This document shows positions 1,349 to 22,001 of a stretch of DNA of 25,130 nucleotides, in pieces. The stretch covers positions 1 through 25,130 of the IMG/VR virus record IMGVR_UViG_3300005253_001974; one strand, given 5' to 3'. Both the position numbers and the translations under genes were made by a program. The DNA comes from a virus. The notes below the pieces were generated by a model, which saw only the letters and a program-made list of their open reading frames with translations, was not told the origin of the DNA and did no database searches. Positions within the stretch are counted from its first letter, which is position 1; every line of letters starts with the position of its first letter.

Positions 1349-4300
1349 TACGGAATCCGTTGTCGAAGCCGCGCTATCCGAAGGACAGGAACCGTACTGT
1401 AGCCCCGCTCGCGCATCTCATCGATCAGAAAGTCTTCAGCTTCCGATACGGATACGCCCAACGCCTTCAAGATACGAGGAACACGTTCGTCAAATTCTTT
1501 GCCGGAAAGCGACCAGACCATGCTACGCAGCAAACCCTCTTCCTCGAATACGCCGCTGATAATGCGATCAACATCCGCCTTGGGGACTGCCACTCGCTTG
1601 TCGTTCAAGACTTCTGCGACTTCATTGTCCGTCAGCCCCAGCACCTTGCTGGCATGGACGATCTTCTGCATTCTGCCGAATATCTCGCGCTCCGCATCCA
1701 CGGCCTTCTCGTAAGCGTCCTGGATTTCCGCCTCGTCACGACCTTCGCGTGCATATGCCGCCGAATAAAAGATGCGGCGTGCGTCTGACCGACGATCCAT
1801 CAATGAACTGGATCGGAAACCTAACGAGAGCGGCACATCATGTGTCCACAATCGTATGCCGAGAAGCACGGCCAAGGCTTCTTCCTTGGGGTCAACGATG
1901 GTGCCGGATTTCAGGGGCTTGCCCTGAATCCCTTTGACTATTCGCTCCATACTGCGAATGGTTCCCGGCTGCAATTTTGAGGTAATGAACTGTGCAATGT
2001 CCGCAGTTTGATCCACGGCGGACGATTCGGGATTATAAATGGCCGCCGTGCTGTTGCTGCTGATCCGCTGGTTGGCTGTGATGTCACGCACTACACCATA
2101 TAGGATCGTCTCATTGAAAAACGGTCGCAATACTTCACGCAATGCACCCTCGGTCGCCTCTCGTGTATCTTCTCCGCGAAGGGCGGCAATAATGGGGGAG
2201 ACCATAAACGACTGCGGTGCGTTGTATTGCGTGTCGACCGTTCGCCATTGATGTTTCTTACCTTCAACCTTGCCCAGATGCGCCCACTGGCTGTTCGCCA
2301 TCCAATCCGGGGCGAGCTCGCGCAGGGCCTCTTCTTCCTTCTTTGACACATTCGTCAACCTGCGCGTTGCCACGCCGACGCCGGTGATCGTCGCCGCCAT
2401 GGCCGTAAATCCGATGGCGCGCCGTATTCCGATGGCCCTCTCTTTCGGGTTGGCCAGCTCCTCTGCAACGAGCCTTGGAATGTTGATCGTCGTGCGGACC
2501 ATTTCGGCGGGGAAGGTCACAAAATCTCCGACGACGATCGCTTTTCGCATGGCTTGGACGGCGTGGGGCGCTTCCGAATAGGTCGGGTACGTCCGTATTA
2601 CCTTATCGGCCGCCTTGCGCTCCAAGGCCTCCAGCGACAATTCGGGGTAAATCCTTTTGAGGGCCGCCAGGTTGCTATAGAAACCATTAACATGCCAAAA
2701 ATCGTCACCCGCCCGGAAGAAATCAAAGAACTTTCTCGGTATCAACGTCAGGGCGCGCAACGCACGGCTCTCGATATACCCGGATGGCCCCGAATGGCGC
2801 GATGCATCTTTGAAAATGGCCCGCAGTTCGCCCGATCGGGAAGCAGCGTTGACGACTCCAAGCCTGATGAGCTTCTGAACGGTCTCTTGTTGTGCCCGAT
2901 TGGACAACTTCAAAAAGGTAAAGACACTCGGAAGAATGTCGGTGCCCGTAGTGCGCGCCGCCCTCAACATGTGCCACGGATTGATGTCTCCGTTGGCCAG
3001 TGCGATAAGGGGATTCGACAGAAAGTTCCGGTTAATACCCATCACCGACCCGGCGGTCTTACCCGCCTTGACCGCGGCGTTCAACCAGAAATACGCCTTC
3101 AGGAACCAGTTGTCGCTGTGTGGAGCGTAGGCTTGGCGCATCGCCCGTTCATACTCGATCGTAGTGAATAGCGGTTTGCCTTGCGTCAGTGGATAGAGGG
3201 CTTCGCCCTTGCCATCGTTGATCTGGGCAATGAACTCGCCCTGCGGCTGTTCAAAGAGCCACTTGCCTAGCCCCCGTTCGCGGAGGTCGCGCAATTGCCG
3301 AACGCTGGCAAGCAGACGAGCCGAGCTAATAACGGTGTTCGCGTATTGCGTAACCGGGTTGGTATCCTCACCCCACACAGCCCGCAACTCGGGCGGGACA
3401 TCCTTGCGAAACTTGAGGATGCCGAGTTCCTTTGTCCCCAACCTGGCGGCACCCGCAGCTTCGATGGGGCTGCCGCGTTTGGCGCTGGTATACAGGAAAG
3501 CGGCCAGGTAAGCATCGGCCTCATCCGCCGTCGGGCGCCGGCCGAGCGACTCTTCCAACTCGCTGCGAAACAGGGCTATGGCGTTGTTGCGGGCTTCGGG
3601 CGAGAGCTTGCGGATAAACTTCGGAATCTTCTTGGGGTCCGTCCGAAAGATCCGATAGGTGCGGTGCATATAGGTGCCGAGATTACCCGTGAATATCGCC
3701 CCCATTTCGCCCTCTACGACACCTTCGCGGATCATCGCTGTAGTCAACGAGTCCACGTCACTGCGGAACTTGACCACCGCGCCGCGGATGGATTCGGGGA
3801 GCGTGTCCGGCGAAACACCTTCCTTCAGAACGGCGTTGATCCTGGCCAAGTCCTCTTTCGGCACACGACCCAGGAGGCCGTAGGTTTTACGGATGCCCCG
3901 GTTGTACTCGTCAATACTGAACTTCATTTGACGGAGGTAGCTGCCCACCGTGCGATCGAACTCGGTTCTCGTCTTGACGGCATCTTCATGCTGGCCGCCC
4001 GTCCGAAGCCAACGGTAAAGTTTCTTGGCCGGATTCAGGCCGAGCCGCTTAGCGCCGACGGTGGCCTCGACCGGCACGACCGGGACAGCTTCGGGTGGTG
4101 TGTCGGCGGTTGCCTTGGCCTGCACGTTCTCAATGACCGTTTCCTGTAGTTTGTCGAGCTTGGCGCCGGGCTCGGGCATGGGCTCGGCCGTAAGTGTTTC
4201 ACGTGGAACAGGTTTTGCCCCTTGGGGCTTACTGGGCTCGGGTTTCTCGACGGCCAGCACCGGCTTGCCCGCCAGTTCATGTAGGTTGGCACGAAGCTGG

Positions 4301-5532
4301 TTGCGCTCGGCGGCGTTGAGGTCGACATCGGGGAGCAACTGCTTGAGCGGACGGAAGTTCTTCCGGCTGGCCGTGGGAGCCTCCGTTAGAGCCTTGGCGA
4401 CATCCGAATGGCGTCGGGCCAACTCCGCAGCCCCTTCGCGGGTCTTGAGCACCTCTTTTGTGAACGCCTGCTCGCTGGTGGCGGCGGTCTGGTCGACTTT
4501 GGCCTTGACCTCCAGCGTCACCCGCTCCTTGACGGTTTCCGGTGTTTGATCGAGGGTCTGCTGTTCTTCCGGCGTCAACGGCTCACCGCGCGACCGCTTG
4601 AACAGGGCTGTCCCAAGCCTTCGCTGCACCGCTCCGCTGACCTTGAGGCCGAGAATGACTCCGGTGGACTCAATGAAATCGTCTGCTGTAGGCAAGCGGC
4701 CTTCCAGGGCCGCGCCACCGGTGGCGAATGCCCCGATCTCCAGGCCTGTACCGACAACCTTGCCGCCGATCGCCCCGGCGCCGATTGCCACAGCACAAAG
4801 AGCCGCCGCTTTGGCGCCTCCCACAGCGGTCGGGCCCAGATCACCCTTTCCTATGGCGCCTTTTTGCCCAGGGGGACCGCGCAGGGCCGTCACCCCCGCC
4901 AGTGTCGTCCCACCAGCCACACCCCGCGCAGCGATACGCCCGGCGAGCTTCGTGCCGACCTTCGCCGCAACGCCCTTTGCCGCTACACCGCCGACGCCAC
5001 CGCTGACATAGGTGATCGGGTCGGCCGCTATGGACAGCACATTCGACAGAATCCTGAATCCCGCACCATCGGGCGGCGGTACGGGCTTTTCGCCCCTAAG
5101 AATCAGTTGAGCCAGCCCGACGGAAGTATTGCCCAGGCCGGACTCTGCGGTCTGTAAGAACGGATCCGCCTTCAGAAGGGAAGCATCCACCTTCAGGAGA
5201 TACGGATCGAGCTTCAGAAGGGCCTTTGGGAGCGACTTCACAAGATTCGCTATAAAGCCCGGCGACTCCAGCTCGGGTGGCAGCGTCAGTACGTCCCTCA
5301 TGCCGACCGATCGACGAATCTGGTTCAGCCTCTTCCGCCGCGATTGTGGTGTCACCGCATCTACGAACAACTCGTCGCGTAAGGCCATCGAGGTGATGTC
5401 GATCTCCTGCGCGATCTCGGCTATGGACGCAGCGTCCTCTTCGTCGGGTGTTGACTGTGCGGCCTCAATCGTCCGCATCAGTTGACGGATGCGCTCACTG
5501 CGAGGATTGAGGCTAGCGGTTGCGTTGGGCAT
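1348..5532 (-). CDS. Giant internal virion protein (1394 aa)
   Basis: The largest gene in the window. Residues 104-126 hold three tandem LLKxDxx heptads. Residues 160-300 are Gly/Ala-rich and membrane-active in look, including a short collagen-like stretch RGPPGQKGAIGKGDLGP (218-234). Residues 310-500 are charged, Pro/Lys/Glu-rich and probably extended. From 503 (KKLYRWLRTGG) to the end the protein is helical. Its late region (QWRTVDTQYNAPQSFMV, FFNETILYGVVRDI, IYNPESSAVDQ, KLQPGTIRSMERIVKG) resembles the C-terminal domain of large polyvalent phage proteins that I recall as the LPD38 type. It is probably injected with the DNA. No clear peptidoglycan hydrolase motif is seen. Its TAA overlaps the next ATG (TAATG). 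Confidence 0.65.
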   Translation of the reverse strand: MPNATASLNPRSERIRQLMRTIEAAQSTPDEEDAASIAEIAQEIDITSMALRDELFVDAVTPQSRRKRLNQIRRSVGMRDVLTLPPELESPGFIANLVKSLPKALLKLDPYLLKVDASLLKADPFLQTAESGLGNTSVGLAQLILRGEKPVPPPDGAGFRILSNVLSIAADPITYVSGGVGGVAAKGVAAKVGTKLAGRIAARGVAGGTTLAGVTALRGPPGQKGAIGKGDLGPTAVGGAKAAALCAVAIGAGAIGGKVVGTGLEIGAFATGGAALEGRLPTADDFIESTGVILGLKVSGAVQRRLGTALFKRSRGEPLTPEEQQTLDQTPETVKERVTLEVKAKVDQTAATSEQAFTKEVLKTREGAAELARRHSDVAKALTEAPTASRKNFRPLKQLLPDVDLNAAERNQLRANLHELAGKPVLAVEKPEPSKPQGAKPVPRETLTAEPMPEPGAKLDKLQETVIENVQAKATADTPPEAVPVVPVEATVGAKRLGLNPAKKLYRWLRTGGQHEDAVKTRTEFDRTVGSYLRQMKFSIDEYNRGIRKTYGLLGRVPKEDLARINAVLKEGVSPDTLPESIRGAVVKFRSDVDSLTTAMIREGVVEGEMGAIFTGNLGTYMHRTYRIFRTDPKKIPKFIRKLSPEARNNAIALFRSELEESLGRRPTADEADAYLAAFLYTSAKRGSPIEAAGAARLGTKELGILKFRKDVPPELRAVWGEDTNPVTQYANTVISSARLLASVRQLRDLRERGLGKWLFEQPQGEFIAQINDGKGEALYPLTQGKPLFTTIEYERAMRQAYAPHSDNWFLKAYFWLNAAVKAGKTAGSVMGINRNFLSNPLIALANGDINPWHMLRAARTTGTDILPSVFTFLKLSNRAQQETVQKLIRLGVVNAASRSGELRAIFKDASRHSGPSGYIESRALRALTLIPRKFFDFFRAGDDFWHVNGFYSNLAALKRIYPELSLEALERKAADKVIRTYPTYSEAPHAVQAMRKAIVVGDFVTFPAEMVRTTINIPRLVAEELANPKERAIGIRRAIGFTAMAATITGVGVATRRLTNVSKKEEEALRELAPDWMANSQWAHLGKVEGKKHQWRTVDTQYNAPQSFMVSPIIAALRGEDTREATEGALREVLRPFFNETILYGVVRDITANQRISSNSTAAIYNPESSAVDQTADIAQFITSKLQPGTIRSMERIVKGIQGKPLKSGTIVDPKEEALAVLLGIRLWTHDVPLSLGFRSSSLMDRRSDARRIFYSAAYAREGRDEAEIQDAYEKAVDAEREIFGRMQKIVHASKVLGLTDNEVAEVLNDKRVAVPKADVDRIISGVFEEEGLLRSMVWSLSGKEFDERVPRILKALGVSVSEAEDFLIDEMRERGYSTVPVLRIARLRQRIP

Positions 5533-12095: not shown

Positions 12096-13115
12096 CTACG
12101 GATAAGAAACACCGCCGACGGTCACGGTCCGCGCCAGCGGCCCATAGTTGCCCCGCCGCCAACGACCCGGACGGGCATCCACGAGGAGGCCCAATGATCC
12201 GGCTCGGCCCCGTTGATCGGCCCGGATACTCAGGGCCAGGAAGCGGTTGTACTGCCGTTGGTACGGACCGTCCGCCAGTTGTTGCTTGCTGCGCTCCATC
12301 GCGGCCAGGCAAGCGTACTTGATCGTCTCGGCGTGCCGCGCACCGCCGTACGGATATCCATTCGCAACCAGTTGGTCGGGCAAAACCTGATACTGATAAC
12401 GAACGGTGTAGTTGGAATCAGCTATGCGCCACGTCAGCAGATCGAAGCGTTGCCCGATCAACCCGGAAACATTGATCGCCTCGACGGTGCAAACCGTCGG
12501 GCGCCCCGTGCTCGTGGACACCTGGAGCAATTCAAGCAGCTCGGCCACACCGGTACTAGACAACGACAACCAGAGCCCGTCGTTGGCCTGAAAATACACG
12601 TCACCGATCAGACCGCCGAAGTCGTCGGGCAGACGATAGCTCCCATCCGCCGTTATCTGGAACGCTTCACCGCTATCCGCGGACGCATCCGACGTCACGG
12701 TAACGACCGTCGAGGACGAATAGCCGTCGATGACGTAAGAGCCGTTCGTCGACACGATCGTATGGCCGACCATGGTGGGGTAGAAGGTCGCCACCGATGC
12801 AGTGATCGTCTTGTCGCTCTCCCCGCCGGTGGTCATCGTCGTGGTCGCCGTGGTCGTCGCCCAGAGCACCGACGTCGCCACCGGCCTCATAAAGCTCCAG
12901 TCGTAGGACAACAGGAAGTCCCGCTGCCCCTCTTCCACGTAGAGACCGACCTCCAACTCTTCAGCGTCGCTGAGGCCCGCAGCCTGATCGGCGCGATAGC
13001 CGTAACCACTACGTTCGGCCACTATCGCCATCAGATTGTCGAACCCCAGCGACGCCGTAGACTCCACTTTGCCCTGAAGCGAAGTCTGGAAAAGCTGGTC
13101 GATCCAGATTATCAT
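12096..13115 (-). CDS. Head-to-tail adaptor protein (tail tubular A / gp4-like)
   Basis: A 339-residue protein that probably sits under the portal and joins it to the nozzle in short-tailed phages. N-terminal helices (residues 1-70) contain LSDAEELEVGLYVEEGQRDFL, then YDWSFMRP at 71-78, a hallmark-like stretch in podovirus adaptors. Residues 85-158 form a Thr/Ser/Val-rich beta insertion (GYSSSTVVTVTSDASAD). The core resumes at RLPDDFGGLIG (161-171) and continues with a helical part (ETIKYACLAAMERSKQQL) and a basic, Arg-rich C-terminus. A GAGG lies 8 nt upstream of the ATG. The position between capsid and nozzle genes supports the call. Immediately after its stop is an 18-bp hairpin. Confidence 0.78.
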   Translation of the reverse strand: MIIWIDQLFQTSLQGKVESTASLGFDNLMAIVAERSGYGYRADQAAGLSDAEELEVGLYVEEGQRDFLLSYDWSFMRPVATSVLWATTTATTTMTTGGESDKTITASVATFYPTMVGHTIVSTNGSYVIDGYSSSTVVTVTSDASADSGEAFQITADGSYRLPDDFGGLIGDVYFQANDGLWLSLSSTGVAELLELLQVSTSTGRPTVCTVEAINVSGLIGQRFDLLTWRIADSNYTVRYQYQVLPDQLVANGYPYGGARHAETIKYACLAAMERSKQQLADGPYQRQYNRFLALSIRADQRGRAGSLGLLVDARPGRWRRGNYGPLARTVTVGGVSYP

Positions 13116-13129
13116 GGGTCAAACCTCAA

Positions 13130-13639
13130 CTATACCTCGACGTAACAAAGCGATCCCTGCGCCTCGGCCGCAACTCCCAGCGACAATTCCAATAACGACC
13201 CGGAAGCCGTCTGGAAATGCCCTAACGGGCTGAAATTGTACTGGACCACAAGAACCGCGGCGGCGGCGGAAGCCTCACCGAGATCACCAGTCAAAGCCGT
13301 TCCACCACCCCCACTCTTGAAGGTGTAGGTTTCATCGCCCGTCAAGACGTCAATCGTCATCAGCAGCGATAACACCCTGATCCTCTTGCCGGTAACGGCT
13401 GCAACAAGCGTGCCGGTCGCGGCCAAGTTGATCACCGCGAACTTGGGCGTAAGCTGCGAACCACTGCTTTGGATCACGCCGGTATTCAACATCGCGTCGA
13501 CCGGCAGCGGGTTGGTCAGCGCCACGTCACCGGCATTCGTACCATCCGCCCCGTGAATCAGCTTTGCCCGCTGATAATGGACGGACGATATCTCATCCGT
13601 TGCGATCGTCTTTCCTGCAACTTCAATGTTGTCGGCCAT
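13130..13639 (-). CDS. Small virion structural protein (decoration-type)
   Basis: A 169-residue beta-rich protein with a very good ribosome site (AGGAG at 6 nt). The segment GADGTNAGDVALTNPLPV (from about residue 30) matches a pattern I recall in many phage structural proteins encoded next to the capsid gene. A C-terminal beta region (FAVINLAATGTLVAAVTGKRIRVLSLLM, then a Gly-rich turn) follows. It is probably a head surface or auxiliary protein. No enzyme motif is present. The gene ends 14 nt before the adaptor start. Confidence 0.65.
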   Translation of the reverse strand: MADNIEVAGKTIATDEISSVHYQRAKLIHGADGTNAGDVALTNPLPVDAMLNTGVIQSSGSQLTPKFAVINLAATGTLVAAVTGKRIRVLSLLMTIDVLTGDETYTFKSGGGGTALTGDLGEASAAAAVLVVQYNFSPLGHFQTASGSLLELSLGVAAEAQGSLCYVEV

Positions 13640-13648
13640 GACTAACTC

Positions 13649-14485
13649 CTAGGCATTGACGACCAGCGCCGCGCGCCACCAGTCCAACGTGAGACTCTGG
13701 GCGCCCGCAGACGTTTCCTTGCAACCCGCCAGAAGCCCCATCTCCTCGCCACCCGGAAAATTGGTGGTGTCGTCGATGAGCGCTTTGGTCACATAGGTGC
13801 CGTTGATAACGCCGTTCTTGAAGATCTTGACCTGCACCGCGTTGGAGTTCTTGTAGTGGTACAGGAGCCCCGTCTTGACGTAAGTGTTCGCCACGATGAC
13901 GTGCATGTTGTCGATCAACGTCGTCGGATTGGCACCGCTCTCCTTGTTGTAGATGAAGTCGGTGCTGTCCGGATCGGCACCCGGCACGTAGAAGCCGAGC
14001 AAGTCCTTGTCGGCAATGGCATTGCTGTCGGAAATCGTGTCCGCCGCCGCCAGACCTTCCTCGCCGAAGCCGACGAATGTGGTACCGATGCTGATGGAAG
14101 ATTTCTTCCAACGCGCCTCGAACGCAATGGTGTGGGGAACCCCGTTGGCCTGAAGGATGAACTTGGCCAACCCACCGCTGACACCGCCCGTCTGAATCCA
14201 CGCCTCTTCGTTGTCTCCGCCATCGGTCGACAGGACCACTTCGCCGTATTCACTGGCGGCGCCTTGCCGGATATCGGCACCGGCATCGCCGAACGACGCA
14301 TAAATAGTGTCCTTGGCGTCCGCTTCGTCCAACGTCGGCATGTTGATGAAGTCGTCGAAAAACACCCAGCCTTCGCGCTCACCGGCCTGGATCTGGTCCC
14401 AGGGAATCTGGTCCCAGATGGACTTCGTCCACATCCGACCGGTGTCGGCGACCTTGGCACTGGGTCTGTATCCTACTGCTCTCAT
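13649..14485 (-). CDS. Probable head decoration or fibre protein, beta-sandwich type
   Basis: A 278-residue protein directly after the capsid gene and expressed from the same kind of leader, with AGGAG 7 nt upstream. It begins with a short basic segment, then an imperfect tandem WDQIP/WDQIQ. From about residue 40 (WVFFDDFINMP) it has the alternating hydrophobic strands of a concanavalin- or jelly-roll-like sandwich (FEARWKKSSISIGTTFVGFGEEG, LLYHYKNSNAVQVKIFKNG, MGLLAGCKE, SLTLDWWRAAL). Such proteins in this position usually decorate the capsid surface and may bind sugars. The role is inferred from fold pattern and position. Confidence 0.65.
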   Translation of the reverse strand: MRAVGYRPSAKVADTGRMWTKSIWDQIPWDQIQAGEREGWVFFDDFINMPTLDEADAKDTIYASFGDAGADIRQGAASEYGEVVLSTDGGDNEEAWIQTGGVSGGLAKFILQANGVPHTIAFEARWKKSSISIGTTFVGFGEEGLAAADTISDSNAIADKDLLGFYVPGADPDSTDFIYNKESGANPTTLIDNMHVIVANTYVKTGLLYHYKNSNAVQVKIFKNGVINGTYVTKALIDDTTNFPGGEEMGLLAGCKETSAGAQSLTLDWWRAALVVNA

Positions 14486-14500
14486 ATCAAAACTCCTGTG

Positions 14501-14554
14501 AAGAAGCTATCAGCTATCAACCCTGAAGGCTGACGGCTGATGGCTGAAGGCTAT
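14501..14554 (-). repeat. Heptamer-based leader repeat, copy 2 (after the capsid gene)
   Basis: A 54-nt element between the capsid gene and the next structural gene, identical to the copy ahead of the capsid gene apart from lacking one 7-nt unit. The similarity extends through the ribosome site: CTTCTT plus a short variable part plus AGGAGTTT lies between the repeat and the ATG in both cases. Both genes therefore share one 5' leader module of about 75 nt. Confidence 0.9.
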
Positions 14555-14559
14555 GTTTA

Positions 14560-15606
14560 CTACTCACCGAACGGCGCGCTGATGGCCACCACGGCTTGTC
14601 GGTTGCGCAACGGACACGCGTAGTTGTAGACCGACAAGTTGTACACCTCGACCGCCGACGGCTGTTTGGCAGCCTGGCGCGGCGGGTACTCGCGGAACTT
14701 CCAACCCTTCTTGAAGACAGGATAGAAGTACGCATGACTGATGATGTACACCGGATTACTGCCTGAGGCCGCCTCGCCATCCAACACAGGCAGCCACGTC
14801 GGCGAAATCCGCGCCAACATGCTTCTGTTAAGCATGGGCTGCGTGTCCGCCCCGAGCTGATCGTTCTGGTTGGCCGCCATGATCTCGTTGTTTTCGATCG
14901 TCTCTTGAGTCATGTAGATCGCGTGCGTCACCTTCTCGTCACCGCGCATGTTCATGGGCGGTCGCCAGTTCGTCTGGCGGATAGCACGAGAGACACGCCT
15001 GCCCAGATCATCCCGCGTGGGGTTCACGTAAGTCGCGGTGTAGTTCTGGTAGGCCGTCTGCACGGCCGGATCGATACCCGCTACAGCCGTATGGCTTCCG
15101 GGCAGATCGGCAGTGAACTTGCCTGCGCTGCTGTCCTCCCAGACCACGTAATACGGAATCCCAAAAGGCAACAGCTTGTCGGAAGTGGCCGGCACTTGCA
15201 TTGACTTGAGCTCGAAGTCGTCTGCGGTGCGAGACCACATGTCGTTGCGCAGCACCTCCATGTCATCCACCAGGGACTCGGGATCCTGCATGGGATCCAG
15301 TTCTCTTTCGTCAATGGCGAATCCCTTACGGTGGTTACGCCAGTCCACGGTCCCTTCGGTCATCACGTCCGGGCGATCAACATCGAAGTCCTCGTACAGG
15401 CCGCTGTGCCCGTCCTCGTTCTCCGAGCCGACACCTATTCTGAAACTCAACTGTTTACCCGACTTCTCACGACCCATCGTCATCGCCACGCGCAGCATCG
15501 GATAATCCTGATACGTCTGCATGGAATCGAACCATTCACCCTTCTGCAAACTCTTGAGCGAATTGATGACGCGATCCTGGATGTCGGTATACGTTTTTGT
15601 CGCCAT
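14560..15606 (-). CDS. Major capsid protein (probable HK97 fold)
   Basis: The main shell protein, 348 residues. Supporting features are its place directly after the scaffold, its size, and its sequence pattern. An N-terminal helical arm (IQDRVINSLKSLQ) precedes a central E-loop-like segment around residues 80-105 (GTVDWRNHRKGFAIDERE). Later come strands and helices with IYMTQETIENNE and a C-terminal domain ending VYNYACPLRNRQAVVAISAPFGE. The start has AAGGAG 6 nt upstream, an excellent ribosome site expected for the most abundant virion protein. It is flanked on both sides by nearly identical heptamer-repeat leaders, which is unusual. Fold membership is inferred; no residues prove crosslinking or cleavage. 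Confidence 0.85.
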   Translation of the reverse strand: MATKTYTDIQDRVINSLKSLQKGEWFDSMQTYQDYPMLRVAMTMGREKSGKQLSFRIGVGSENEDGHSGLYEDFDVDRPDVMTEGTVDWRNHRKGFAIDERELDPMQDPESLVDDMEVLRNDMWSRTADDFELKSMQVPATSDKLLPFGIPYYVVWEDSSAGKFTADLPGSHTAVAGIDPAVQTAYQNYTATYVNPTRDDLGRRVSRAIRQTNWRPPMNMRGDEKVTHAIYMTQETIENNEIMAANQNDQLGADTQPMLNRSMLARISPTWLPVLDGEAASGSNPVYIISHAYFYPVFKKGWKFREYPPRQAAKQPSAVEVYNLSVYNYACPLRNRQAVVAISAPFGE

Positions 15607-15620
15607 ACCAAACTCCTTAA

Positions 15621-15681
15621 AAGAAGCTATCAGCTATCAGCTATCAACCCTGAAGGCTGACGGCTGATGGCTGAAGGCTAT
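15621..15681 (-). repeat. Heptamer-based leader repeat, copy 1 (ahead of the capsid gene)
   Basis: A 61-nt element between the scaffold and capsid genes, made of degenerate 7-nt units (read on the plus strand: AGCTATC three times, then AGGCTGA, CGGCTGA, TGGCTGA, AGGCTAT). It is identical to the copy after the capsid gene except for one extra heptamer. In the transcript, AUCAGCCGUCAGC can pair with GCUGAUAGCUGAU at 12 of 13 positions (one a G-U pair), forming a hairpin about 20 nt ahead of the capsid ribosome site. Confidence 0.9.
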
Positions 15682-16544
15682 TATCTCCAAGCTTCGATCG
15701 CTTCCTCGCGCGGAGACATTGCGGGCTGCTTGCCCTTCACGGGGCGTTCGGCAGACCCTCTTCGTCTCCGATCGATTTTGCCGTCGAGCTTCGTGCGCTC
15801 CATTTCGGCTATGCGATCCCAATGTACGGCATGATGGCTCCGCGTCAGAGCGGTTGATACGCTCATCCGCTGCCTGCGCCGCTGTGCGTCCGCCTGCAAG
15901 CTCTTGGCGCCGTGGAACACTTCCAGGCGCTTCTGGAACTCACTGCTTTGCGGGTCCATGTCCACTGTTGCGCCGACTCCATAGTCCTTCGCCCAGTCTT
16001 CGCCGAGTTTCGTAAGGAAGCCGTCAAAATCGTTGAATTCACGCAGTACGTTCATCGCCCGCAACTCTTCTTGAGCCTGCCGGCGGAAAGCGTGAACCTC
16101 TTGAAGCTGCCCGTTCAGGTGTTCCACGACGGTCTTGATCGGCCCGACGAGCGAATCGTCCAGCTCATCGCTAAATTCAACTTTCAAGGGCGTGTAGTCA
16201 CCCGGCACCACGCCCGGTGCCATGCCCGGCGTCACGGGCGCCGGAGCACCCGGAACCTGGGGCTGGACCTGCCCAGCCGGCGGCTGCATGATCCGGCGAT
16301 CGATCGTCGAAAACATGCGCTCCAGTCGCGGCCCATCGAAGCCTTCCAGATCAGCCGGGGACAGGCCGTAATCCTTAGCCCGCCCTAAGATCGCTTCGCT
16401 GATGGCGGCGCCACTGGGTTCATCCGCAGCCGGAACCGATTCGCTTGCCGGTTCGTCGACTACTTGAACGTCGGACGGTTCAACAACATCGCCCGCCGGT
16501 TCCTGTACGTCATCCGCAACATCGCGGGGTTCTACATCAGACAT
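15681..16544 (-). CDS. Capsid scaffolding protein
   Basis: It guides capsid-protein assembly into the procapsid and leaves or is degraded before DNA fills the head. At 287 residues it has the usual scaffold make-up. Residues 1-48 are acidic (Asp/Glu/Val/Pro-rich) and disordered, and residues 88-116 form a Pro/Gly linker (from PPAGQVQPQVPGAP). A long charged helical middle (VVEHLNGQLQEVHAFRRQAQEELR) and a basic C-terminal tail (KIDRRRRGSAERP) follow; such tails contact the capsid protein in known scaffolds. The ATG at 16544 has GGAG at 6 nt, whereas the ATG at 16550 is too close to that site. Its TAA overlaps the first base of the heptamer repeat ahead of the capsid gene. The assignment depends on composition and position, not on a conserved motif. 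Confidence 0.8.
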   Translation of the reverse strand: MSDVEPRDVADDVQEPAGDVVEPSDVQVVDEPASESVPAADEPSGAAISEAILGRAKDYGLSPADLEGFDGPRLERMFSTIDRRIMQPPAGQVQPQVPGAPAPVTPGMAPGVVPGDYTPLKVEFSDELDDSLVGPIKTVVEHLNGQLQEVHAFRRQAQEELRAMNVLREFNDFDGFLTKLGEDWAKDYGVGATVDMDPQSSEFQKRLEVFHGAKSLQADAQRRRQRMSVSTALTRSHHAVHWDRIAEMERTKLDGKIDRRRRGSAERPVKGKQPAMSPREEAIEAWR

Positions 16545-16556
16545 TGCCATTCTCCA

Positions 16557-16892
16557 TTACCAGCAGTCACCAAAATTCACGTATCCATAGGCGCGGCAGT
16601 ATTTCTTCTGAGCGTTGCGTGATCGAAACGCCACCATGCCGTCGTCCTGGATCTTCACGTCCAAACCTTTAGCGTGCGCATCCTTCCGGTATTTCATAAC
16701 GTCGAGAGGATGCACGCTCAGGGCCAAGCTCGTATGGTTCACCCACGGATCGCCGCTGCGCCGGCCCGCATGTTCCGCGCGGATGTCACGCCGGGCGATT
16801 CTGCCGTTCACCAGCAGCGCCTGGGGGATGTGATCCATCGGTGACGACCAGTCAAAAGTCCTGTCGGCGATGGAATAACAGTAGATTGGCAT
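16557..16892 (-). CDS. Small phage protein with FmdB-like N-terminus
   Basis: A 111-residue protein beginning MPIYCYSIADRTFDW, similar to the 'MPxYxY' opening of FmdB-type zinc-ribbon proteins, although the CxxC pairs of true FmdB are absent. The body includes NGRIARRDIRAEHAG and ALSVHPLDVMKYRKDAHAKGL, then DGMVAFRSRNAQKKYCRAYGY, which I recall as a recurring small-protein pattern beside phage scaffold genes. The frame is open for 39 codons further upstream into the previous gene. The ATG at 16892 is preferred because GGAG lies 9 nt upstream and it avoids a long overlap. Function unknown; it ends 12 nt before the scaffold start. Confidence 0.65.
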   Translation of the reverse strand: MPIYCYSIADRTFDWSSPMDHIPQALLVNGRIARRDIRAEHAGRRSGDPWVNHTSLALSVHPLDVMKYRKDAHAKGLDVKIQDDGMVAFRSRNAQKKYCRAYGYVNFGDCW

Positions 16893-16899
16893 TACACAC

Positions 16900-17241
16900 T
16901 CACTCCAGACGCAACACTCGACTTTCCCACCAGATGTTTGCCAAATCAGACCACCTACATTTCGTTGCACGGCACTCGTGTAGGATGTACTTGGTACGCC
17001 CCCACGCACTCCGTATACGGGATCGCATCGTCGTGCGAAGTTGCATCGGCTGCTCCGTCAGTTCCGTCCAATGAGCCATACCGAGCCCACACAGGCGTCC
17101 TATCTCGCTCCAGAGTCTTGACACACATGGGTCACATAAATGCACGACGTGTCGCGTATGCCTCGCGAACGTTCCGGCACACATCCCGAAAGCGATCCGG
17201 CGAGTAGCTTCACGATCACATTGATTTTCGCATTGGTTCAT
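16900..17241 (-). CDS. Small Cys-rich protein, possible zinc site
   Basis: A 113-residue basic protein with C4-x3-C8 and C36-x2-C39, plus a Cys at 21 and several His around 28-34 (RHTRHVVHLCDPC). This could form a zinc site. The second half is basic with several Trp residues. The ATG at 17241 overlaps the portal stop by one base (TGATG), so translation is coupled to the portal. The stop ends 7 nt before the next ATG. No family is recognised. Small zinc-binding genes between portal and scaffold are often of unknown function in environmental phages. Confidence 0.6.
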   Translation of the reverse strand: MNQCENQCDREATRRIAFGMCAGTFARHTRHVVHLCDPCVSRLWSEIGRLCGLGMAHWTELTEQPMQLRTTMRSRIRSAWGRTKYILHECRATKCRWSDLANIWWESRVLRLE

Positions 17242-18965
17242 CAGCCTTCATCCTCCTGCTTGTTGCTCATCGTGCCGCTGAACATCCGCTCCACCAGCGC
17301 GTCCTCGGCGGATCGCGCAGGGGCCGCACTTGGGCCTTGGGCTCCCGCACCGACCGGCGCGCGCGGCGCACCGCCCGCCGGGGCACTCACAAAAGCATCG
17401 TCCACCGCGTAGTCGACCACTTCCGCCAACTCCGGCAGATTGTCCAGTTCGGAATACTTCCTTAGCAGTTCGGGCGTCTTAAGCACCACGGGCCGCTCAC
17501 TGGGCATCTGCATAGCGGGGATCACCACGGTCTGAATTGCCTTTATCAAATGCTCAAGCTGCTGGGCGCTACTGCGATGCTCCATCGAGTCGGGCACAAT
17601 ATCGATCTCGTGCTCGATGAAATCCCCTTCGCGTATCTCCGGTGACCACATTTCGGAAACAGGTGTCCCATTGCGTCCGACTTTCCGTTCCACGCGCCTC
17701 ATCCGGGTGGGGTGTGTCCATTCGTACCATGCGATGTTCTGTAGGATTTTCTTGGTGAACGCCACCACCTGAAGCTGCATGTCACGAACGAGGCGTGAGG
17801 CATTGACGTTGGCCAGGCGTTCCTGCGTTGCAGTCTCGGCAATCGGCCCGACACCGCCCAGGAGTCGCAGATTACCGGACAACTCGTCGAAGAGCTGCCG
17901 ACCGTGTATGGCGGTGGCCAACGCCTGGGGATTGGTTCCACCCTTGGTGCGCCGCGTGACTGCGTTGTTGCTGTTGACCATGTAGACCCCGCCGTCCATG
18001 GCATCGCGAATCTGTCGGGCATCCTCTTCGGCACCGCCTTCGTAGGTGTAAAACTCGGCGGCCTGATCCTCTTTCATAAAGATGCGCCGATACTGGCCGT
18101 TCACGAAGTCGTGCGTATCGAGCATCATGGCCGCGCGACTGTTGGGCATCAGCTCGTCCAGCACGCGGTCGAACCCCAAGAGCGGGTAGGGGCCGAACTC
18201 CGGGCCGTCGTAGCTTTCAGCCCGCAGCGGGGCCGTCACCCCCGAATCATCGGTCAGATAGACTATGACATTGGCGGGCTGCACCAGGATCGACCAGATG
18301 TCGACCCAATCGAACAGCGAGCCCTGCTCTTCGTTGTAGTCCCAGCGATCCTTGCGATCGTCCAAGTCGGACCGTCCGGATCGTCGGCCCTTCATCTTGG
18401 CGACCTGTTCCTGATCGTAATTCGCATCGTCGAGCAGCTCACCTTTGCGCCTGGCGAAGCGGTGCCCCATGATGTCCGCCTGAGAAAACTCGTCATGCGC
18501 CAGGTCGACCACGAAATCCGGCAGGGGAATAGAGTCGGCAAACACGTCACCGCCCGGATCGATGTTCGTGGTTATGCCGCAATAGACGAGACCCATATAG
18601 CCCAGAATGGCTTCCTGCACCGATCTCCTGAGCGTACTGAGCAGGTCAAGCTCCTGGATCGTGATATTCAGATGCTCCTGGAAGATTCTCGCCGCCTTGG
18701 GGTTGCTGCGTGAAGTCACACGGACAGTCGGGTTGCTCTGAACAAAGGAGCGCACGAGTATCTGCACGAACTGATCCATCATGTTGACCGGATCGCGCAC
18801 GGCGTCCGGCGGATCGTCCTTCGAGCGGTAATAGTGACCGCGCGCCGCCTCGATGTTGAGCTGCCGCACGTCCCGAAAAGGCTTCAGCTCGCGGTAGTTG
18901 TACTTCACCACTTGCCGCAATCTCTTGTACTGCTTGGGCTCGTATGGATCGAAGTTCAGCGCCAT
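17241..18965 (-). CDS. Portal protein
   Basis: The dodecameric vertex ring through which DNA enters and leaves the capsid. It is 574 residues from the ATG at 18965, which overlaps the previous stop (TGATG). The open frame reaches 16 codons further but without support. The assignment rests on position (after terL, before scaffold and capsid), length, and typical portal features. These are an N-terminal helical region with NYRELKPFRD, a central YMGLVYCG segment, an aromatic-acidic wing (DWVDIWSILVQP), a long helical stem (NGQYRRIFMKEDQAAEFYTYEGG), and a C-terminal part with the Leu-rich LFDELSGNLRLLGGVGP. The last 45 residues are Ala/Pro/Gly-rich and then acidic, probably disordered. No frameshift or truncation is seen. 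Confidence 0.85.
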   Translation of the reverse strand: MALNFDPYEPKQYKRLRQVVKYNYRELKPFRDVRQLNIEAARGHYYRSKDDPPDAVRDPVNMMDQFVQILVRSFVQSNPTVRVTSRSNPKAARIFQEHLNITIQELDLLSTLRRSVQEAILGYMGLVYCGITTNIDPGGDVFADSIPLPDFVVDLAHDEFSQADIMGHRFARRKGELLDDANYDQEQVAKMKGRRSGRSDLDDRKDRWDYNEEQGSLFDWVDIWSILVQPANVIVYLTDDSGVTAPLRAESYDGPEFGPYPLLGFDRVLDELMPNSRAAMMLDTHDFVNGQYRRIFMKEDQAAEFYTYEGGAEEDARQIRDAMDGGVYMVNSNNAVTRRTKGGTNPQALATAIHGRQLFDELSGNLRLLGGVGPIAETATQERLANVNASRLVRDMQLQVVAFTKKILQNIAWYEWTHPTRMRRVERKVGRNGTPVSEMWSPEIREGDFIEHEIDIVPDSMEHRSSAQQLEHLIKAIQTVVIPAMQMPSERPVVLKTPELLRKYSELDNLPELAEVVDYAVDDAFVSAPAGGAPRAPVGAGAQGPSAAPARSAEDALVERMFSGTMSNKQEDEG

Positions 18966-19275: not shown

Positions 19276-21258
19276 TCATCCTCTTACCAAACACCACGGC
19301 CGCGGCGTATCGCGCGGGCTCCAGCTCCCCTGGCGGACCTCAGCGCGTTCCGCTGCCTTGTGCAGATAGGCCAACGTGTTGCGCGAAACAATCTCCGGGG
19401 AGTCCGGCCGTTTCGTGCGTTTGAGCAACATCCAAGTCAGGGCGTCGCCGATCACGCGGTCGCCGTGGTTCTTCTTAGCGCTGGAGGGATCGGGAGCGGC
19501 AGCGGAACCCACGTGGGCCACGCCTTGCGTCTCCGTCCACTCGTACATCTGGCACTCATTGACCGCCGTTTCGTCCGGGTTGGTGAACTCACGCATGTTC
19601 AAGGCCCGGCCGTATTCGGTAAGCAGCCCGCGTTTCGAGTCCTCGTTGGGGAAGAAGCCCGGTATCTCGGATTTCTTGCCGCCGGAGGTGGTCATGTAGT
19701 ACAGGTTGGGGTAGTTCAGCTCGCGCAATCGACTGCCGAACTCGCGGCCCACGCCGCTGCCCTCGAAAGCGATGAAAGCATCGTTGAACCAAGTGCCCAC
19801 GGCATAGACGTACTCGGCGAACCGTTCCGGGCGCATGTGCGGAGTCGTGAAACCGGCCGTCTTACAGCGCATCCGACAATCGCCGACGCTGATGTGCGAA
19901 TTGCTCATACCGGTCCCGGCGGATATGTCGCAACCGATCACGAAGCGACGGTCCTTGGCGGGTCGACGCAGATGATCGGGATGAAACCACAGTTCCAGCC
20001 GCCCCTCCTTCGAGGGCGCCCACTCGATCTTCTCATAGCCGATGTCGTAGGTGAGTTCGCCCGTGACGAACGGCGTTCTTTTGAACAGGCGCACGTATTC
20101 GCGGATCTCGTCCAGATCGAAGAACGGAGAGCCCGAACCGATGAAGTCCATGTCCAATTCCTGAGCGATCAGCTTGGGAATCGGGCACTGCATACACTCA
20201 TAGTCGTAGTAGGGGCTGCGCACTTTGCCGTCCAGGATGAACGGGTAAGTATGGACGGCCAGACCATCGGACGGCGGCAGCTTTTTCTCTAACTCGGGAT
20301 AGCGAGACAGAATGTCGCGCGGCGTCGTGATGCGCCAGTAGGCATCGTCGACGATCTTCAGCTTGCCCTTGTCGGCCGTATAAAGCCCCGCGCCGTGGAT
20401 AGGGTGCTGGGACCAATGCAGCCGGTGGATCCGAATGTTGCCCGCGCTGATGATCTGGTGGAACCCGTTGCCGATGCCCTTGGGCGTGCTGGCCCAAACC
20501 CGGCACCGGGTGTTGTGCTGCAACGAGCCGATAAGCTCGATGGACTCTTTCCGGTCCCAGGCAGCGTGCTCGTCCACCAGCACCGCATTTTTCCGGCCTC
20601 CACGGCCCATGTCCGCGGTCGTCGAGGAGCCGATGATGTTGGAGCCCGTGGCAGCGTTCTTCCACGTCATCTTCTTGCGGTCGAGCGAGTGCGTCATCCA
20701 GGACGGCAGCCAACGGTGCATGTAGTCGAGTTTGTAGAACAGGCTGTCGGGGTTGTCCTTGTCATCCACGTAGCGTTCGTTTCGGCTGGCCACCATGAGC
20801 GTAACGAAACGCGAGAACAGAAAGTGCTTGTCGAACACGATCAGCGGCATGGTGGATCCGCCGATGTCGCGGGACTTGATGATGCCCACGGAGCGCCGAC
20901 CGATGGCGCTGTCAATGTCGCGCAGCACTTCCTCTTGGAAGTCCCAGGTGATGAACGGCCGGTCGGGGCAATCGGGGTAACGCTTCACGTCCAACGCCCA
21001 GACGAACACGTCGGCGAAGAAAATGACGTCCCGGGCGCATGCCGCGGCCAAGGTCTGCTGGTTGGCGCGCGAATCGGCCGCCCAGCGGATGATCGTGCGC
21101 CGGAATTGAAGGTTTGCCTCCAGCTCCTTCGGTACGATAGCGCTGGGAAGCTCCTCGCCTTTGACCGCCTGTATGTCTGTCAGCTCTCGCATGGTTTTCA
21201 AGCCGGCCCGCGCATAAAAAAACGGCACGTAGGAGTACGGGTCCGTACGTGCCGTCAA
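19276..21258 (-). CDS. terL: Large terminase subunit (ATPase and nuclease)
   Basis: The DNA-packaging motor and headful or site-specific nuclease, which docks on the portal. With 660 residues from TTG it is slightly longer than most. ATPase domain: a Walker A-like loop SVGIIKSRDIGGST (residues 123-136), Walker B AVLVDEHAAW (225-234) with D229/E230, and a coupling motif WASTPKG (255-261). RNase H-like nuclease: D444 in VIGCDISAGTG, E499 in AFIAFEGSG, and D600/D605 in HGDRVIGDALTW. The TTG at 21258 has GAGG 7 nt upstream. However, a terminator-like hairpin spans codons 2-15, so the real start may be the ATG at 21192 (638 residues), which lacks a ribosome site. All catalytic motifs are present. 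No small terminase subunit was recognised nearby. Confidence 0.93.
   Translation of the reverse strand: MTARTDPYSYVPFFYARAGLKTMRELTDIQAVKGEELPSAIVPKELEANLQFRRTIIRWAADSRANQQTLAAACARDVIFFADVFVWALDVKRYPDCPDRPFITWDFQEEVLRDIDSAIGRRSVGIIKSRDIGGSTMPLIVFDKHFLFSRFVTLMVASRNERYVDDKDNPDSLFYKLDYMHRWLPSWMTHSLDRKKMTWKNAATGSNIIGSSTTADMGRGGRKNAVLVDEHAAWDRKESIELIGSLQHNTRCRVWASTPKGIGNGFHQIISAGNIRIHRLHWSQHPIHGAGLYTADKGKLKIVDDAYWRITTPRDILSRYPELEKKLPPSDGLAVHTYPFILDGKVRSPYYDYECMQCPIPKLIAQELDMDFIGSGSPFFDLDEIREYVRLFKRTPFVTGELTYDIGYEKIEWAPSKEGRLELWFHPDHLRRPAKDRRFVIGCDISAGTGMSNSHISVGDCRMRCKTAGFTTPHMRPERFAEYVYAVGTWFNDAFIAFEGSGVGREFGSRLRELNYPNLYYMTTSGGKKSEIPGFFPNEDSKRGLLTEYGRALNMREFTNPDETAVNECQMYEWTETQGVAHVGSAAAPDPSSAKKNHGDRVIGDALTWMLLKRTKRPDSPEIVSRNTLAYLHKAAERAEVRQGSWSPRDTPRPWCLVRG
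21216..21255 (-). terminator. Intrinsic terminator-like hairpin at the 5' end of the terminase gene
   Basis: On the minus strand a perfect 10-bp stem (ACGGCACGTA at 21255-21246, TACGTGCCGT at 21231-21222) encloses a 14-nt loop and leads straight into seven T (21222-21216). This is the form of a Rho-independent terminator for leftward transcription. It lies just after the TTG start of the terminase frame, so it either separates the small-gene operon from the head operon or acts as an attenuator needing antitermination. The hairpin could also affect access to the TTG start. Confidence 0.6.
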
Positions 21259-21307: not shown

Positions 21308-21637
21308 TTAAGTCAGTTGGTCCAGTCTCGCTCCCGTCAATTTCGGTGCTCGCCAATCCTTTTTCGCGTGAGCCGGACGCCTCAACTCGAGCAGAGCGTC
21401 TTTATCCACGTTCGTGTAGGTCGAAGCGAAGTTTCTCCATTTCGGTGTCGGCGAAACCTTTGATGAATGGAATTCACCCCACTCGTCCCATACGGTCATC
21501 GACTTGGAACCACCGACGCCGGTGAAACGGTGCTCAAACCAATACGACCGAGAAATCGGACGCTTCACCAACGCCCACAACGCTCCGGGCGCCACGACGG
21601 CCGCCGCCACAATCGAGAAAAAGCTACGTCGGTTCAT
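21308..21637 (-). CDS. Small protein with Tat-like N-terminal leader (copy B)
   Basis: A 109-residue protein beginning with the same MNRRSFFSIVAA as its upstream neighbour, then AVVAPGALWALV and KRP. The leader lengths are identical, but the remainder (SYWFEHRFTGVGG, then a basic C-terminus rich in Lys and Arg) bears no clear resemblance. The ATG follows the previous TGA by a single base. A twin-arginine export signal or an N-terminal anchor is the simplest reading; no classical cleavage site is seen. The gene lies directly upstream of the large terminase. The mature domain is not recognised. Confidence 0.65.
   Translation of the reverse strand: MNRRSFFSIVAAAVVAPGALWALVKRPISRSYWFEHRFTGVGGSKSMTVWDEWGEFHSSKVSPTPKWRNFASTYTNVDKDALLELRRPAHAKKDWRAPKLTGARLDQLT
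21602..21637 (-). repeat. Tat-like leader repeat, copy B
   Basis: This is the second copy of the 36-nt leader, 364 nt from copy A with 33 of 36 bases identical and only silent changes. The pair suggests tandem duplication of a leader followed by divergence or replacement of the body. Confidence 0.85.
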
Positions 21638-21638
21638 A

Positions 21639-22001
21639 TCAGAATCCTATGAGTTTCGCCCTGCGTCCCGCCTCGGCACACAGGGACTCGAAAGTCATGT
21701 GCTCAGCGCGAAATGTCGGATCCCACACCGTGCGGCGCTTGATCCAGATTACATACCCGCGCGGCCACTCGACGACGTAATGTCCGGGGGCCTTTTGGTC
21801 GGTATACAAAAAACTGAGCCATTCCGGCCAGTCCTCAGCGTCCTTTGGTGCGAATGTGAGAAGTTCTTGCTTGCTGAGTTCTCTGTATCGCGTTGGGTAA
21901 TTTGCGAAGCTGTCCGGCCGTGGTCGCTTGCACAACCCCAACAACACCTTCGGCACCGCAGCCACAGCCGCCACGATCGAGAAAAAGCTACGCCGGTTCA
22001 T
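21639..22001 (-). CDS. Small protein with Tat-like N-terminal leader (copy A)
   Basis: A 120-residue protein opening MNRRSFFSIVAA, which fits the twin-arginine pattern R-R-x-F-x, followed by a hydrophobic stretch to about residue 24 that ends at KRP. No Ala-x-Ala cleavage site is obvious, so the leader may remain as a membrane anchor. The mature part is mixed and aromatic (YVVEWPRGYVIWIKRR), suggestive of a small beta-rich domain. The downstream neighbour begins with the same 12 residues. Only a weak AGAG lies upstream. The body is not recognised. A role at the host membrane (entry, lysis or exclusion) is inferred only from the leader. Confidence 0.65.
   Translation of the reverse strand: MNRRSFFSIVAAVAAVPKVLLGLCKRPRPDSFANYPTRYRELSKQELLTFAPKDAEDWPEWLSFLYTDQKAPGHYVVEWPRGYVIWIKRRTVWDPTFRAEHMTFESLCAEAGRRAKLIGF
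21966..22001 (-). repeat. Tat-like leader repeat, copy A
   Basis: The first 36 nt of this gene match the first 36 nt of the downstream neighbour at 33 positions. All three differences are at third codon positions and silent, so both encode MNRRSFFSIVAA. The homology fades beyond residue 12, although both hydrophobic segments are the same length and end in KRP. Confidence 0.85.

Follow-up and report, generated by a model that had tools for sequence, protein, structure and literature searches.

The two heptamer repeats that bracket a putative capsid gene in a 25,130-nt virus record, the whole of which we refer to as the window, are most readily accounted for by a dispersed hairpin that was inserted or copied at two neighbouring junctions, and not by a capsid-specific device. 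It consists of a variable loop enclosed by two inverted arms, each a tandem array of heptamers (GCYNTCA in the 5' arm, TGANRGC in the 3' arm), and both window copies are members of a hairpin family of the form 5'-(GCYNTCA)n-loop-(TGANRGC)n-3'. This family is widespread in unrelated phages and bacteria and apparently undescribed; its repeat strings were not found in the literature searched. Among its members we observe a near-fixed arm order, intergenic placement, presence or absence at related sites, length changes of 7 nt and loops shared within a phage, and it is the fixed arm order that is the most telling of these facts.

Results

A putative capsid gene between two copies of one hairpin

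Every called gene of the window lies on the minus strand. A large terminase gene (TerL, 19276-21258, phrog_5989) is accompanied by genes with SU10-like matches for the portal (17241-18965) and the adaptor (12096-13115), and between the latter two lie a scaffold-like gene (289 aa, 15681..16550), a capsid-like gene (348 aa, 14560..15606) and the next head-region gene (278 aa, 13649..14485). The capsid-like protein led us to a sole relative among viral contigs, L003, in which homologues of the portal, scaffold-like, capsid-like, next and adaptor genes follow in the same order; identities are 31% for the scaffold-like gene (L003 2044-2970), 44-45% for the capsid-like gene (2974-4038) and 33% for the next gene (4091-4903). 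The gene order TerL, portal, scaffold-like gene, ORF, adaptor supports the reading of ORF 14560-15606 as a putative capsid gene; its product had no match in a family-model search and chance matches only in a PDB profile search, and its AlphaFold model (pLDDT 29) was not usable.

Some further features of the window concern its gene content. In the window, a 169-aa ORF (13130-13639) separates the 278-aa head gene from the adaptor; the corresponding L003 genes are adjacent, so that this ORF resembles an insertion or a loss. From the portal to the scaffold region, the called genes leave a 348-nt gap (16893-17240) that is partly covered by overlapping minus-strand ORFs (16557-17009 and 16900-17241). 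The small adjacent ORFs 21308-21637 and 21639-22001 have a start-proximal stretch of 80 nt in common at 75% identity (window 21308-22001), which suggests a tandem gene duplication.

The longer repeat copy (61 nt, 15621..15681, minus strand) is situated upstream of the capsid-like gene and is abutted by the stop codon of the scaffold-like gene; the shorter one (54 nt, 14501..14554, minus strand) separates the capsid-like gene from the 278-aa gene. In a coding-strand alignment their sole difference is one extra TGATAGC unit, just as the first-pass annotation had described. The pair is the top-ranked direct repeat of the window, and no heptamer array other than these two copies was found across it. 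On the coding strand, the stop-proximal arm is (GCCNTCA)4 and identical in both copies (15651..15678 and 14524..14551), and the start-proximal arm is (TGATAGC)3 in the 61-nt copy (15626..15646) and (TGATAGC)2 in the 54-nt copy (14506..14519). The plus strand correspondingly reads AGCTATC two or three times, AACCCTG, and then AAGGCTG, ACGGCTG, ATGGCTG and AAGGCTA. Each copy thus lies on the minus strand in the spacer that separates a stop codon from the following ribosome site, with the coding-strand layout stop codon, (AGCCNTC)n, GGGTT, (GATAGCT)n, TTCTT, AGGAGTTT and ATG, in agreement with the common heptamer-built leader proposed earlier. That the similarity would run on through the ribosome site holds for the Shine-Dalgarno (SD) core AGGAG and some flanking bases, which are common to the leaders of the capsid-like gene (TTAAGGAGTTTGGT then ATG, 15607..15620) and of the next gene (CACAGGAGTTTTGAT then ATG, 14486..14500); the remainder diverges. 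Both repeat-bearing gaps measure 74 nt, while most other gaps of the head block are no longer than 25 nt.

The hairpin folds, with little sign of a conserved RNA function

The expectation that the leader can form a hairpin was borne out: folding energies of the sense strand are -31.6 kcal/mol for the 61-nt copy (z -6.2 against shuffles) and -22.5 kcal/mol for the 54-nt copy (z -4.9), and the antisense strand of the two copies also folds well (z -6.8 and -4.0, respectively). The fixed core AGC..TC / GA..GCT yields a hairpin whatever occupies the variable positions. At the two variable heptamer positions, we detected no co-variation between arms, which were complementary in 46% of cases within their own hairpin and in 48% when swapped, and the sense strand had no excess of G-U wobbles over C-A mismatches (33 vs 40). 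A search of Rfam covariance models against the window returned no match.

A strong hairpin, the TTCTTTT that follows the 61-nt copy and the location of some bacterial copies between convergent genes might bring to mind an intrinsic terminator or attenuator acting between genes. We regard this as most improbable, as T4 runs behind phage copies (6/74) are about as rare as A4 runs in front of them (5/74), convergent junctions are not enriched (6/81 hairpins vs 24/439 controls, p 0.44), and a terminator search gave no match at either window copy. With arms that do not co-vary, G-U pairs that are not favoured and U-tracts that are rare, a conserved RNA switch or terminator is unsupported. Nothing shows selection for a particular transcript structure; a side effect of the hairpin on mRNA stability or translation is possible.

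A hairpin family with one arm order

Searching bacteria and viruses for the repeat, a check proposed along with the first description, did recover a degenerate hairpin family, although the exact 49-nt element was absent from the viral contigs and blastn with the element against cultured phages and plasmids gave no convincing full-length match. Weak matches were scattered over 13 places of a Pseudoalteromonas shioyasakiensis plasmid (NZ_CP077771.1) and 11 places of a Streptomyces sp. plasmid (NZ_CP098484.1), with no annotated features under the best match in either. With the degenerate hairpin pattern, 85 stretches of viral contigs, some of which may be bacterial chromosome fragments within the IMG/VR sample, had the order (GCYNTCA)n-loop-(TGANRGC)n and 2 the opposite one (binomial p about 5e-23). 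Adjacent opposite arrays in the fetched loci had the family arm order in 59 cases and the reversed order in none. For bacteria the counts were 280 vs 5, raw numbers that include overlapping matches and come from 16 genomes picked for carrying the repeat.

A junction pattern matched 24 stretches in bacterial genomes and 2 in phage contigs, and a single-arm pattern matched 77 phage stretches. The bacteria found by the junction pattern belong to Planctomycetota, Gemmatimonadota, Omnitrophota, Chloroflexi, cyanobacteria, Pseudoalteromonas and Sulfurimicrobium, so that the similarity to arrays of heptamers between genes of environmental bacteria, noted at the outset, proved real. Carriage is patchy: when one phylum was sampled evenly, matches turned up in only 5 of 149 genomes. 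Genomes of Moorena and Tildeniella contain hundreds of three-unit matches and none to a reversed control pattern. In the Moorena bouillonii chromosome, an array of several tens of units is located near 398.0-398.3 kb; an orientation along the replication strands of this chromosome, an impression from a first listing, disappeared with a de-duplicated pattern.

Such arrays could in principle be a neutral heptamer satellite, generated in spacers by local slippage and quasi-palindrome formation without any dispersal machinery, as the degenerate unit and the long pure arrays of Moorena would allow. Either arm order, however, makes the same duplex, and slippage or stability alone should therefore yield both orders. 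The fixed order consequently requires either the spread of a common founder or a factor able to sense polarity. The satellite explanation also leaves unaccounted for the same unit in different phyla and the loops common to different sites of one phage, and we consider it rather unlikely, even though every length change seen comprises whole heptamers.

Placement between co-directional genes

Gene calls were made with a home-made script, so that individual start sites are approximate. None of the 85 non-redundant phage hairpins falls inside a called gene, in loci that are about 89% coding; 74 of this set lie at co-directional, 6 at convergent and 1 at divergent junctions, at median distances of 11 nt from the stop codon and about 24-26 nt to the next start. 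Some bacterial copies are found between convergent genes, and in bacteria the asymmetric arm composition had no bias relative to the genes (six ++, five --).

This placement is one argument for an expression leader, in which the hairpin, as part of a polycistronic transcript, would protect or process the mRNA or tune translation of the gene behind it, analogous to the SAS/ESAS of cluster K mycobacteriophages or the TAACTGA repeats of Beggiatoaceae; the two window copies would then frame a stable capsid segment. The location between stop codon and SD agrees with such a role, as do the depletion of divergent junctions (1/81 hairpins vs 35/439 controls, p 0.03), the weak tendency of single arrays at co-directional junctions to follow the coding orientation (41 along transcription vs 22 against, p 0.02), and the presence of an array or hairpin at several unrelated major head genes, among them the likewise bracketed head gene of contig IMGVR_UViG_3300044798_000503 described below. 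On the other hand, SDs are no more frequent at hairpin than at control junctions (25/59 vs 119/308), neither co-variation of the arms nor a wobble bias of the sense strand is seen, related phages have empty sites, and the genes behind the arrays of other phages (portal, tape-measure, adaptor, ligase, transposition, lysis and head genes) are not confined to abundant proteins. Altogether, we judge an expression leader unlikely, though worth keeping in view.

Gain, loss and copying among phages

In L003, the gap between scaffold and capsid genes is 3 nt and that after the capsid gene 52 nt, and neither contains a heptamer array. The element must thus have been gained or lost since the window phage and L003 split, and the comparison with related phages that was proposed at the outset found it absent from both junctions in this relative. 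Equivalent differences occur elsewhere: a hairpin of about 70 nt in L206 has an empty counterpart at the same site in L082 and L087 (75-84% identical around the site), and a hairpin in L211 faces an empty site in the related L059. At common sites, L204 and L063, as well as L208 and L081, differ in length by whole heptamers. The heptamer hairpin is dispensable at several sites.

Several phages have many hairpin copies. In the 47-kb phage contig IMGVR_UViG_3300044798_000503 (loci L159-L161), about fifteen gaps contain heptamer arrays, and about ten of these arrays are two-armed hairpins; two of the hairpins bracket its major head gene (phrog_1005), and several neighbouring genes are bracketed likewise. 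The contig is well suited as a model of the family. Loops of different hairpins resemble each other more within a contig than between contigs (Mann-Whitney p 7e-7), and the loops of one contig are often inverted relative to each other. A capsid-specific device and the earlier idea of a booster of capsid expression are not supported by these observations, given about ten hairpins in one phage, arrays before many gene types, and the same head-gene order without arrays in L003.

It had also been suggested that the repeats mark a recombination cassette, their short homology serving the exchange of the capsid gene or of modules. Two direct copies that flank exactly one gene would suit this purpose, but homology ending at the element was not clearly commoner than at control junctions, whether counted over all pairs (27/119 element pairs vs 162/445 control junctions) or at up to 85% identity (35/55 vs 164/277). 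A recombination boundary therefore seems very unlikely.

Discussion

The closest described relatives of the heptamer hairpins are REPINs, REP doublets that form hairpins (PMC3116915). As in REPINs, we find intergenic, multicopy inverted doublets with a fixed relative orientation (85 vs 2 viral stretches) and a variable spacer; the window copies fold, no phage hairpin lies within genes (0/85), copies number two in the window and about ten in the model contig, and singlets and doublets both occur. In contrast to REPINs, whose arm is a conserved 16-mer REP, the arms consist of tandem degenerate heptamers in variable number, and the hairpins are found in many phages. Moreover, no RAYT (Y1 tyrosine) transposase is nearby: none of 28 Y1_Tnp loci in six of seven carrier genomes is flanked by a heptamer hairpin, with one 2-unit array only. 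Because the arms are not REPs and no hairpin adjoins these loci, we do not file the element as a REPIN.

Neither of two further definitions applies in full. The TAACTGA repeats of Beggiatoaceae, cyanobacteria and Bacteroidetes (MacGregor 2015, PMC4679880) are likewise direct repeats of a heptamer that lie mostly between genes, frequently immediately ahead of start codons, change in length by 7 nt and have a patchy distribution across phyla. The unit here, TGANRGC, i.e. of TAGCTGA type, is one base away from TAACTGA, and the arrays here form inverted two-arm hairpins of fixed order. TAACTGA repeats are forward and within a few nt of the start codon, where canonical ribosome sites are rare (PMC4679880); single arrays here lean towards the forward orientation (41 vs 22), but SDs are present in the window and as common at hairpins as at control junctions; the word "phage" is absent from that paper. 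SAS/ESAS are repeated sequences before start codons in cluster K mycobacteriophages, half of them with imperfect inverted repeats and a variable spacer (PMC3203893). Inverted repeats with a variable spacer just upstream of start codons are present here as well. SAS/ESAS, however, combine a 13-bp GGGATAGGAGCCC motif with 17-bp repeats and are essentially confined to one phage cluster and to non-structural genes (PMC3203893), while our units are heptamers and the window leaders, TTAAGGAGTTTGGT and CACAGGAGTTTTGAT, lack the GGGATAGGAGCCC motif at the start. From intrinsic terminators the hairpins differ by the general lack of a U tract after the stem-loop (T4 in 6/74), and the terminator search had no match at the window copies.

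We place close to even chances on the copies being small, non-autonomous, dispersed REPIN-like elements with heptamer arms between co-directional genes. More tentatively, they may belong to a family, not named so far, of miniature mobile hairpins whose arms are heptamer arrays. This family would reside in unrelated tailed phages and several bacterial phyla, an enzyme that reads arm polarity would disperse it, and phages would act as its carriers; capture of the heptamer repeat from a host, as surmised at the outset, is possible. In a dispersal of this kind, the hairpin would copy itself, with the help of a machinery that senses polarity, into spacers that separate co-directional genes; lodged after one stop codon and ahead of the following ribosome site, it would cause little damage there, and arm length would subsequently drift as slippage adds or removes whole heptamers. 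We infer true transposition rather than ectopic recombination, and the window copies would stem from one recent event that copied the hairpin to a second junction; any influence on capsid mRNA would be secondary. Several observations speak against dispersal: any insert that a densely packed phage genome tolerates would seem intergenic, the tilt of single arrays towards the coding orientation hints at some influence on expression, no transposase is linked to the hairpins at the 28 Y1 loci, and target-site duplications were not found.

Phage genomes are generally considered to leave little space for dispersed repeats. If dispersal is true, a hairpin family of near-absolute polarity would provide a traceable miniature element that moves between phages and their hosts, and it would become testable whether an enzyme recognises the heptamer arms and whether the hairpins alter the expression of virion genes.
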